From: Euborellia annulipes
Lineage: Eukaryota > Arthropoda > Insecta > Dermaptera > Anisolabididae
DNA: 64,000 bases
NCBI GenBank assembly: GCA_023213315.1
Contig: JAKCPI010009403.1
Span: forward strand, 124,001-188,000
Direction: 5' to 3'
Part shown: one piece after another, positions 9,154-59,200 of the stretch
Position numbering within the stretch: position 1 is the first letter of the stretch
Layout of the letters: each line of letters opens with the position of its first letter
Notes under the pieces: generated by a model
Told to the model about the DNA's origin: nothing
Seen by the model: only the letters and a program-made list of their open reading frames with translations
Database searches by the model: none
Made by a program: the position numbers and the translations under genes

Positions 9154-9735
9154 TCATTTTTTTTTATAGCGCTTCTTCTGGAACCCATTGCTCTCTCTCG
9201 CCTTCAGCGGGCAAATAATTTTTATCAATTTATGATATTTTTTGTTGCAATGCAAATTTTAAGAAATAACCTTGAGTTTTAGAATTCGGGATCCCGGATG
9301 GGTAAAGAGAGCGATATATGAAGTGGCTCTAGGCTTGCAACTGAGATTCCAAATTCTAAAACTCAATTTACAAAATAGTCAATATTTTATTTATTTCTTT
9401 ACCAATCTCAATGAAACTTTAGAAAAAAACTCATTTTTTAATTATAAATCTCTGGTAATAATTTGGTTTTAATCAGACAATGCTAAATAAGCTTTTTCGA
9501 TAATATAGAATTGAGTGTTGATGTCATTAATAGGGATGAAACGATACCACCGAGGTATCGATACTTTTACTCGGTACTGGTATCGGTCGCAAAGTATCGA
9601 GTACCTACTCGGTATCGATTGAAAAGTATCGATACTTACTCGTATCGGTCAATTTTTTCGTACAATTAAAGATAAGCAAAAACTTTGCAGCCAGGAGATT
9701 AAAGAAAAAATCTTTTATTTAATTTTCTATTTGCT

Positions 9736-9771
9736 GACGTTTCGGTCCGCAATCACGGCCTTCATCATCAG
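9736..9771 (-). ncRNA. Hammerhead ribozyme core, left arm of H2
   Basis: On the minus strand: CTGATGA (9765-9771), a stem II region, then GAAACGTC (9736-9743), with the self-complementary ACGT of a minimal stem III and C as the predicted cleavage nucleotide. Stem I has only two pairs and stem II is imperfect. The core is canonical but the activity is uncertain. Confidence 0.6.
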
Positions 9772-56200: not shown

Positions 56201-59200
56201 TTTAGTTTATTTTTAAAGATTTTTTTTTGCGTCTGAAATATAGGCAACACGTTATATAGAGTATTTCAGGCAAATGCTACAATAGAAGAAACTAAGTATG
56301 CTGGCACGATTAAATTAAAGTTATGGAGAAAAGATAACCAGCGACTGCTTTCCACGTTAAAATAATTTATTAGCAAACCGCCTTCGGCGGGGCTTTACCA
56401 ATGGCCTGGAGCTACGCCCCCTGAACCCCCTTGCTCGCCTTCGACAAATGCATAAAATTTATTCTTGCTGACTGTTTGGAAATTTTCAAATTTCCCTCTC
56501 TGACTTAAATTTTAAATTTCCCGCTCCCACTCCACTTCCTGTAACTATAGCCAATCAGCATCCTGATTGGCACAGACGGAAGCTAGCCGCTAGCGCTTTA
56601 TATATCGTAATGATAAAGATAATGATATTTCGGTATGCCTAACGCAAACCATCCTCAGTGCATCAAATTATATGTTTGTGGAGCGATTTACAAACTCATA
56701 TAATTTAATGCACTGAGGATGGTTTGCGTTAGGCATAACGAAATATTTGCTAATAAATTATTTTAACGTGGAAAGCAGTCGCTGGTTATCTTTTCTCCAT
56801 AACCTTAAATGCTACAATATTTTTATATTTATTAATATTTAGTTTAAATTGTCTTTGATTTTTGAGACGGTAACGGAAAAAATAACTTCAAGACTTTTAG
56901 CAGCCAAATATATTTTATTATAGCCATACTAGTTTAACGTTTTGGCCTCTTGTCAAAGGCATCTTCAGAGATGGTTGGCGGGAATAATTGGAATTTCAAT
57001 ATGAGCGACACACATTCACCTGAACAAAGCCCTCAAAGGAATGACTCTGAAGATGCCCGAAACAACTATAATAAAATACATTGGGCTACTATATGTCTTT
57101 GATCATAAATTTATACTCAAATAAAATATCATTAAATCTATGATTTAAGAAAGGATAATTAATTTAGCACCTAAATTTCTTTCTACTATTTATGAGTGTG
57201 GTATAAACAGAACTAATGAAAGACTTACTCCAGATTCTAAAATATATTTGGTATAATCATAAATGGATTTGATGCACAATTGCTGAATTTGGTAGCCCAT
57301 TTGTACTGATACACAATTAAATAGTCCTTCGTTCCCAGCGTCGTCATCAGACTCTGGGATAATTTTACGCTTTCTACCCTGGAATATTTTAAAAGAAATT
57401 ATAAAAAAAATTACACTAAAACCTAACAAAATTTTGATTAATCATTATTATGAATTTTATTCAAAATAATTAAAAATAATCGATTGTTTAAAAAGAAAAA
57501 AATTTATTGATGATACTATATTAAAACCTTTTCCCATGTACTGTATTGCTATTTCATTATTAATGAGAGTGCTCAAACATCATGATGGTAGTTCCTAATT
57601 TTAAAAATCTGCAATTGTGCTTCTCAGCGCAAAAAAAGGCTTTTTTTATCAAGTCAAATTCACAAGAATTTAAAGATTGAAACTAATGCACTTAATTTTC
57701 TTTCATGAAAAATTTTTTAGGCCTCCCTCGGTTATCGCAGGGCTCGCATAAGATATGAGTTGTTGACACAAATCAATTTTGTTCAACTTTCGGATAATCT
57801 AAAGTAAAGGGTAGGTTTGGACGCCATGCGGTCCGATGAATTTAAGTCATTTGTAAACCAAATGGTCTAAATAAATATGCTTAGATAATTTGTATCATAA
57901 TTTATGAATAGTTTAAAGTTTATATGGCCTAATGCCGAAGAGATTAAAAAAAAAAAAACTTTTAAAGCAGGGCCTTTCATTAAGAAATAAGCAAAATGTT
58001 TTGAATTACTTACTTGTAAGAAGATATTTTGTAATTCGGGGAACCATTGTTTAATTAAACATTTATGCGCCTGCTCGGTAGCTCTGTTCAATCCCAATTT
58101 GAACTCAGCTAATGTCAATGGACGATTAATTTTTGTAAATACTGTGATATCGACCAATCTCATTGTGCTAAAAATATTAATATCAAAATAAAAACAAATC
58201 GATTGAATTTGGCCCAACTTCATCGACACTCAAAATAAATAAATAAATAAATATATAAATAATCATAGTTCAAGATAATTTAAAAAAAAAAAAATTCTTT
58301 GTAAAAGACTACGTTTTAAAAAAACATTTGTTTATTACTTTTTTTGAATAGCAAATAATATATTTAAATCTCGACTTAGCCCTCCGGCTTGGTGAAATTT
58401 TTGCCGCCTTGCGCAAAATTTTTTCCTTCCCGTGAAAATCATTTTATCTTTTTAAATTTTTTTGTCTTCCCGTCAATATCATTTTACCTTTATCTTTTTT
58501 TTAGGGAAGCGAAATTTTTGCCGCGTTGTCCGAAATTTTTGGAAAGGCCCGGCCCGCAGGTCCCCACTCAAGGTCCCGGCCCCCCCCCGCACCGCGGGGT
58601 TTGCGGGGTGTACGTTACCCCATTGTATACGAGAAAATAAAAATAAAGACGAGGTCTAAATGACCTCCGATGCCGAGACCTTTCCTTGTTCACAATTCAT
58701 CGACATTTTTTGATAAATAAATCTTTAAATGACGACTAATCGGATAAAAGCTGGAAGCGAGATGGTAGATAACTCTCTCCAAGATTGCCTAAGTGGCGAA
58801 TGATAAACCCACGCTTAAAATTAGACCCAAGTATATTATCGTAAAATTATCAGGTTGTTTTTCTAATATTAACTAGGTTTTATAAATTCACATATATTTA
58901 TAAATTTCCAGATACTTATTCTATTTTTAAATTAATAAATGATTTATTAACTAATATCTTGTATGCCAGAGTTGTAACATTTGTAGGAGACACCAATTGA
59001 AGGACCACAATCTTTTAATTAATCTTCTTTTTGACCTTTGAATAGATTTGTGCCATAGGCCACATTCAATTGAAACTTTCTCAAGTTCAGGTGAAATTCT
59101 TTGAGCATCTCCACCTAAGATTAATAAGGAAAAAATAATTATTAAATAAATAAATAAATTGTAATTATTATAACCAAAAAAATCTGACCTGCTAAATCAA

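Follow-up and report, generated by a model that had tools for sequence, protein, structure and literature searches.

Eight inverted-repeat elements with hammerhead-type cores in Euborellia annulipes are probably head-to-head insertions of Penelope-like elements

A 64,000-nucleotide (nt) stretch of the Euborellia annulipes genome (the window; GenBank assembly GCA_023213315.1, contig JAKCPI010009403.1, G000:C6621:124001-188000 in our numbering) contains eight inverted-repeat elements, E1 to E8. These are very probably insertions, old and recent, of Penelope-like elements (PLEs), each consisting of two 5'-truncated copies joined head to head with their hammerheads facing outward. The case is built on the anatomy of the elements, the count of one-sided tails, an end module in common with a coding PLE, junctions that vary within a family and, for one family, a spliced origin. 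The window is A+T-rich animal DNA with dynein heavy chain exons on the minus strand, and the assembly comprises 903 Mb in 25,949 contigs. An earlier note on the window had proposed at least eight mobile elements of one shared architecture with hammerhead-type cores. Each of the eight places it named holds an inverted-repeat element with one or more CTGANGA...GAAA-type cores, intact or damaged, on the outward strand, and a density of eight per 64 kb agrees with its estimate. The cores are present throughout, and not all are good: they are intact in both arms of E4, E5 and E7 and in the left arms of E1, E2 and E6, and altered elsewhere, with one altered in each of E1, E2 and E6, both damaged in E8 and stem II lost in E3.

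The core had been described as the only sequence that the elements have in common. This was incomplete. In the better copies an unpaired base separates CTGANGA from stem II, a stem I is present, the tail is one-sided and the element lies between target-site duplications; a GCTG...CAGC end hairpin is found in E2, E4, E5 and E7. Rather than being tied by the core alone, the elements would form one class, PLEs, with an end module of hairpin and tail. None of the window elements has a reverse transcriptase (RT) or GIY-YIG open reading frame (ORF) of its own.

Five of the eight elements (E4 to E8) are flanked by an exact target-site duplication of 10-15 nt (coordinates on the plus strand), and each has a tail on one arm only. 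The earlier description of the elements as mobile was right. These five show the traits of PLE insertions, namely a tail on one end, a duplication and an A+T-rich target. E4 (46001-47895) has head-to-head outer arms of 105 nt that are 99% alike, with another repeat inside (46625-47334). Its cores lie at 46072-46105 (minus strand) and 47791-47824 (plus strand), its end hairpin TGGCTG...CAGCCA at 47867-47911 and its right tail at 47896-47923 (both plus strand), and its duplication ATAAATAAATAC at 45984-45995 and 47924-47935. E5 (52164-52645) is a near-perfect palindrome between copies of TCAATAGCTATTATT (52149-52163 and 52646-52660). The left core of E5 (52265-52299, minus strand) has a stem I of UUGC/GCGAA with an outer AACUCC/GGAGUU, the right core is at 52548-52582 (plus strand), and the GCTG...CAGC hairpin (52181-52221) and tail (52164-52200) are on the left (minus strand). 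E7 (56285-56806), between copies of AAATGCTACAATA (56272-56284 and 56807-56819), is head to head with its left arm split from 56378 by an insert of about 250 nt (56378-56627) that carries CCGCCTTCGGCGGGGC. It has cores at 56624-56658 (minus strand) and 56713-56747 (plus strand, stem II weakened), and a left tail (56285-56316) and hairpin GCTGG...CCAGC (56299-56343) on the minus strand. E6 and E8 are decayed head-to-head elements. The arms of E6 (54366-54603) are 76.5% alike, with hammerhead-like cores at 54428-54459 (minus strand) and 54474-54505 (plus strand, decayed to TTAAAGA), a right tail at 54575-54603 and the duplication AATAAAATTT at 54356-54365 and 54604-54613. E8 (56860-57093) has a left tail at 56860-56889, a left hammerhead-like core with GAAA altered (56936-56968, minus strand), a right core with stem II deleted (57047-57065, plus strand) and the duplication TGTCTTTGAT at 56850-56859 and 57094-57103. 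The starts given earlier for E5, E7 and E8 (52164, 56285 and 56860) are exactly the first bases after the left duplications.

E1 (9682-9986) has head-to-head arms (9682-9767 and 9899-9986) that are 86.5% alike, with hammerhead-like cores at 9736-9771 (minus strand) and 9898-9930 (plus strand); the latter is altered to CTGATAA and has a stem I of UUGCC/GGCAA by eye. E2 (13768-14073) is also head to head, with a left core at 13834-13868 (minus strand; stem I run of 6 base pairs, bp), a right hammerhead-like core decayed to GAGA (14000-14031, plus strand) and an end hairpin TGGCTGC...GCAGCCA (14043-14088, plus strand). E3 (39470-39616) is a decayed head-to-head element with the core CTGAAGAAGCCGAAA, in which only CTGAAGA-AGCC-GAAA is retained.

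In its strict form (CTGANGA, one extra nt or none, a stem II of 3 bp or more, then GAAA) the motif occurs five times in the window, twice each in E4 and E5 and once in E7, against a mean of 0.047 and a maximum of 2 in 150 dinucleotide shuffles. A separate 200-kb host sample from another contig has 25 occurrences, and its reversed sequence has none. Across the 903-Mb assembly, CTGANGAN{6,30}GAAACGTC matched 25,698 and 25,501 times on the two strands (51,199), and the reversed-pattern control 14 and 31 times (45); the density of the exact pattern ending in GAAACGTC is one per 17.6 kb. Insertions are fewer than the 51,199 motif matches because some matches are alleles of one insertion: the allele pairs L090/L091 and L094/L095 have common flanks, and the assembly contains some allelic duplicates.

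The predicted fold was examined on 45 distinct cores and their flanking sequence, drawn from the window and from the loci fetched by then and falling into 28 families by stem-II similarity; the filter was GAAA[CT][GA]T[ACT], with no stem required. Stem I pairing, summed over 28 representatives, reached 71, whereas permutations averaged 31.5 with a maximum of 62 (0 of 5000 reached 71); stem II pairing was 70 against a mean of 46.5 (maximum 69). In the 45-row alignment, 73.9% of cells were paired, compared to 53.7% after shuffling, and the covariation score for stems I and II was 0.548 against 0.229 +/- 0.026; sliding the pairing partner lowered the score to 0.10-0.23. Pairs changed on both sides numbered 7, not above the shuffles (7.4). 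RNAfold drew stems I and II in three examples, with z about -3. The covariation of stems I and II does indicate that the fold is kept in the source elements, and with the CUGANGA and GAA core of type I hammerheads the motif is a predicted ribozyme. We saw no stem III hairpin. The 4-mer after GAA was self-complementary (ACGT or ATAT) in 26 of 28 representatives, in a set whose filter allowed only ACGT, ACAT, ATGT and ATAT.

In 24 of the 45 rows a stem II of at least 3 bp forms when a single base is left unpaired behind CTGANGA, and in 4 it forms without such a base; the other rows had a weak stem II. The type I arrangement in which stem II comes directly after A9 is thus not the rule here. Pattern scans of viral and prokaryote contigs returned 16 and 44 stretches, and the matches in prokaryote genomes mostly lacked stem II. 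Hammerhead-like cores with an extra U after CUGAUGA and a stem II of 5-7 bp were present in IMG/VR loci L002-L004, L006-L008, L010 and L013-L016, and stems I and III were visible by eye in the viral contigs L002 and L003. Rfam reported 0 hammerheads at gathering score among the 11 pattern-scan loci searched, and at E up to 1 just a weak type II match in L003. Given its presence in viral (phage) loci, in some of which stems I and III can be made out by eye, the extra-base variant is not necessarily inactive.

Tails and duplications were counted with a single pipeline, run on the window, on 200 kb of contig C11 and on a further 48 fetched loci of smaller size. It yielded 122 cores, 40 of which had no inverted mate. 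Among the 56 inverted elements that it yielded, 26 had a duplication and one tail, 3 had a duplication and no tail, and 1 had a duplication and both tails. Exactly one tail was therefore present in 26 of the 30 elements with a duplication, and L101, tailless according to the pipeline, was one-tailed on hand inspection. The mismatched-end control gave 1-2% per class, and random positions attained a duplication score of the E4-E8 type in 1.75% of cases. The 56 include repeats (L066, L067, L068 and L111 stand for a single element, and two rows each come from E7 and from one C11 element) and two allele pairs, and the window elements recovered were E1, E5 and E7. The arm ends of E5 had been reset after its duplication was seen, and the pipeline with the original ends agrees. 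Because most loci were chosen for holding an exact core, elements coreless in both arms are under-represented. Addition by hand of E4, E6, E8 and, as one-tailed, L101 gave 30 rows. A trimmed set of 26 was left when one allele was dropped together with three C11 cases that were weak or of low complexity. In this set the duplications were 10-19 nt long and 88% A+T (70% in the window), and the tails were 20-38 nt long, 17 of the 26 being 30-36 nt. Neighbouring cores at most 600 nt apart were head to head in 11 cases, in the same direction in 5 and tail to tail in 1; three of the 11 are one pair repeated, and three of the 5 likewise (overlapping L066-L068).

Inverted arms and short duplications would also be expected of DNA transposons or miniature inverted-repeat transposable elements with terminal inverted repeats, the hammerhead-like sequence then being a transposase-binding site. 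We regard this as barely credible. Stems I and II covary, the tail is one-sided, the duplications range from 10 to 19 nt where such elements would have a fixed length and fixed inverted ends, and junctions differ within a family. In addition, the same end is found in and behind RT/GIY-YIG genes, and the explanation is contradicted by copies that lack exactly the intron of one family, F3 (both described below).

The end hairpin spans both of the positions at which the copies start. At 18 of 29 tail-side ends, compared to 0.6% in shuffles, a GCTG of the arm is complementary to a CAGC of the tail, and three versions occur (TGGCTG/CAGCCA, TAGCTG/CAGCTA and CGCTGG/CCAGC). Only the outer two pairs co-vary in an alignment of 18 rows selected for GCTG...CAGC. 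The proximal start lies in the loop, 16-33 nt after GCTG, and the distal start 4-20 nt after CAGC. When only the hairpin was sought, 264 kb yielded 24 matches on two strands, many of them double-read because self-inverse, against 2 in the reversed sequence.

From these features we infer that the two arms arose from two complementary DNAs (cDNAs) primed independently on opposite target strands. A staggered cut at an A+T-rich target would produce two 3' ends, each of which would prime a cDNA on sense PLE RNA. One cDNA would begin at the distal site and carry the tail; the other would begin about 32 nt upstream of it, at the proximal site in the loop of the GCUG...CAGC hairpin. The cDNAs would mostly pass through the hammerhead and usually end within a few hundred nt. 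Joined 5' end to 5' end, they would form an element with head-to-head arms whose hammerheads face outward, with one tail and with a target-site duplication. In PAc of Anolis there are likewise two RT start sites, the interval between which equals the tail, and both target strands are cut and extended (PMC11167929). Two-ended insertions may pair a distal with a proximal start because an asymmetric RT dimer primes both target strands; we advance this tentatively, jointly with the splicing switch proposed below for F3, and rate the pair somewhat short of even.

Alternatively, the cDNA could fold back on itself and be copied, with the resulting hairpin then integrated; for Penelope elements of Adineta, the molecule proposed to fold back is an antisense RNA (PMC3846280). 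Palindromes at PLE junctions are reported in the same paper, and the central spacer is 0-1 nt in 12 of 50 elements here, leaving room for self-priming, or for a fixed RNA 5' end, in a minority. Self-priming predicts equal outer ends, yet a single tail is the outcome in 26 of the 30 elements with a duplication. Overall, self-priming seems an unlikely source of these elements. Central junctions differ by eye among copies of one family, both in F1 (L089, L090, L092, L093) and in F2 (L094, L096, L097), so the palindrome was not copied as a fixed unit.

To examine where the copies end, we used a set of 49 elements, leaving out E7, repeats, alleles and five weak C11 rows and adding E2, E3, E4, E6 and E8. 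The shorter arm extends through the hammerhead cleavage site in 37 of the 49 under a strict boundary rule and in 45 under a loose one, and ends within -4 to +8 of the site in 5 and 1, respectively. An arm copied past the cleavage site implies a template that was uncut there, so most of the templates were not cut. The earlier note had argued from the preserved cores that cleavage matters to mobility; the copies do not show this, and retention of the core is partly trivial because the core lies close to the cDNA start. The hammerhead of PAc is located at the ORF start, and its mutation does not stop insertion in vitro (PMC11167929). Arm boundaries pile up near C3 (10 or 7 of 49 within -3 to +4), which fits a splice junction.

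The same counts bear on retrozymes, which PMC7229834 describes as units repeated directly in tandem that carry canonical type I hammerheads and give rise to circular RNAs. The elements could in principle be such non-autonomous small circular RNAs, excised by the hammerhead and inserted by a PLE, since the metazoan retrozymes without long terminal repeats reported there are likewise small, noncoding, hammerhead-bearing (type I) and co-occurring with PLEs. The copies here are head to head with minimal cores rather than in direct tandem repeats, and most shorter arms pass through the cleavage site, making this origin highly improbable.

In family F3, an intron adjoins the hammerhead. The coding loci L137, L152 and L153 read CTCGCCTCCGG / GTATGT...TTTTAG / CTCTGAAGATGG, with a GT-AG intron of 109 nt between the slashes, while the short insertions L098 (both arms), L099, L100 and L072 (one arm; the other arm differs) read CCTCCGG / CTCTGAAG, with the intron precisely missing. 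The diagnostic sequences are CCGGCTCTGAAG for the spliced and TTTAGCTCTGAAG for the unspliced form. Exon 1 is identical over 72 nt between the right arm of L098 and L152, and identical runs of 21 nt and 26 nt are found in the left arm of L098 and in L099. The F3 short insertions thus appear to derive from spliced sense RNA. Exact removal of a GT-AG intron points to a sense template, which argues against the antisense model as the only route: an antisense template could not be spliced at GT-AG, yet the F3 short copies look spliced. Because the evidence consists of genomic copies only, it could also be supposed that the intron-less copies are the ancestral line and that the coding copies gained the intron. 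The exact GT and AG boundaries, the T-rich 3' end and the 72 identical nt of exon 1 make a gain decidedly unlikely.

The F3 splice junction lies 2 nt before the core. The spliced sequence is predicted to fold at -22.1 kcal/mol with a long stem I, compared to -13.3 kcal/mol for the unspliced sequence, so that splicing would lengthen the predicted stem I. Splicing may in this way assemble stem I and switch the ribozyme on. Only spliced RNA would then have the full stem I, with spliced templates giving the short head-to-head copies and unspliced RNA the coding copies; this is the other half of the tentative pair put forward above with the RT dimer. In a second family, 106 columns upstream of the L081 core match L149 up to CTTCAG / GTTGTT, an agreement on one side, as L149 continues into other sequence beyond the 5' splice site and the 3' splice site was not seen. 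The PLE copy at L149 is perhaps interrupted by another mobile element behind that site. Introns are no more than suggested for F4, from L063 compared with six other cores (folds of -18.1 kcal/mol for L063 and -25.0 kcal/mol for L101), and for the E7 type, from 78 nt (GTGTAATG...TTCCAG) in L154, where the exon match is weak (score 13.5). The idea that the window elements are so many non-autonomous families, each with a 5' part unrelated to the others, was wrong for F3, in which the apparent sequence change at the core is an intron boundary. The interior of E8 (56989-57017) shares GAATGTGTGTCGC with F3 exon 1 (L098, L137, L152, L153), so E8 may be a distant F3 relative.

Coding relatives of the elements are present in the genome. 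Of 710 candidates 150 were scored, and these contained GIY-YIG 118 times; five of the rows have open frames of 822-852 amino acids (aa), and there are head-to-head pairs on several contigs. L129 is a complete PLE with a single 852-aa open frame containing RVT_1 (E=2e-12) and GIY-YIG (E=2e-5), and with identical 664-nt direct repeats (pseudo-long terminal repeats, pLTRs), each with a hammerhead and a GCTGG/CCAGC hairpin. It terminates 18 nt after CCAGC, at the distal site and 128 nt from C3 of the core, and its inverted partner copy runs past the contig edge. Among 27 GIY-YIG loci fetched, a hammerhead-like core lies behind the endonuclease in 16, comprising L129, L134 (weak) and 14 of the 20 from a later batch, in which the core is about 420-780 nt downstream. 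The short element L098 is 93.4% identical to the coding locus L152 over 152 columns. A search with the PLE protein gave 10 homologues among 7,994 scored candidates, the named one being a 'Reverse transcriptase domain-containing' protein of Euphydryas editha, and a PDB sequence search gave no match. Inspection by eye of open frames upstream of unmated cores in the 200 kb and the window recognised no PLE coding.

Several observations weigh against the PLE interpretation or parts of it. Target-site duplications were searched for and not found in E1, E2 and E3, in which the combination of tail, duplication and A+T-rich target of E4 to E8 was not seen, or in 26 of the 56 inverted elements. The extra base after CTGANGA is absent from the textbook hammerhead, and an Rfam search of E5 at E up to 10 gave no hammerhead among 28 matches. 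Just 3 of the 24 hairpin-scan matches have a whole core within 140 nt, and central spacers of 0-1 nt are more frequent than expected from independent truncation. No core was found in the stretch read of 10 of the 27 GIY-YIG loci (L130-L133, L141-L143, L148-L150), and the core criterion applied at these loci was lax and had no shuffled control. L135 is unlike a PLE and by eye resembles bacterial UvrC. E7 and, weakly, E8 are the only families of the window that resemble a fetched coding locus (79.4% to L154 for E7, score 33.4 to L137 for E8).

Other features were noted in passing. The microRNA-precursor matches of E5 in Rfam were taken as an artefact of its central palindrome. At gathering score, Rfam found no hammerhead in the whole window, the sole match being a tRNA-Gly (GCC) at 9083-9153. 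A TGGCTG...CAGCCA hairpin, a palindrome and a weak CTGAAGA...GAAA motif cluster at 1272-1315, 1369-1588 and 1778-1804, and the cluster (1272-1804) is perhaps a ninth, decayed element. A family of repeats of about 700 nt with CACAGACAGACA repeats has copies at 11894-12591, 15453-16134, 16246-16907 and 46625-47334, the last nested in E4, and further diverged copies. The GIY-YIG frame L135 (G000:C21118:23300-24400) may be on a symbiont or contaminant contig. A long run of zinc-finger exons occupies C11:10001-120000 (L070-L080); it may resemble the insect lola locus, which would suit an arthropod host.

PLEs and their ribozymes are already known. Penelope/Poseidon PLEs, as described in the accessible parts of PMC11167929 and PMC3846280, share with the elements here one ORF with RT followed by GIY-YIG, pLTRs, a head-to-head inverted pLTR, a tail of about 31-40 nt on one end, an A+T-rich target, two RT starts and a minimal hammerhead near the ORF start; Pen1-6 of Adineta vaga have head-to-head inverted pLTRs with a 31-bp tail on one of them (PMC3846280). 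In contrast to those descriptions, most copies seen here are very short, the motif is present by the ten thousand, a GCUG...CAGC hairpin extends over both start sites in several families, and an intron adjoins the core in one. Minimal type I PLE hammerheads (PMC6155905, PMC7229834) likewise have CUGANGA...GAA, stems I and II, no proper stem III and, in most, a self-complementary 4-mer; as far as those sources were available, the differences are the one unpaired base between CUGANGA and stem II, which is the rule here, and the intron-split stem I of F3. No intron-split hammerhead or one-tail count was found in the literature searched, which covers PLE papers in part, and within it these two and the hairpin spanning the start sites may be new.

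The copies bear on the insertion route of PLEs, their head-to-head arrangement, their retention of introns and the role of their ribozyme; PMC3846280 proposes self-priming on antisense RNA, and in PMC11167929 cleavage was found to be dispensable for insertion in vitro. Those read here point to two start sites, to a single tail for each insertion and to templates that were mostly uncleaved; in one family, the templates appear to have been spliced sense RNA. With tens of thousands of motif copies in one genome, questions of PLE mechanism become countable, and F3 offers a concrete case of a hammerhead that may depend on splicing.

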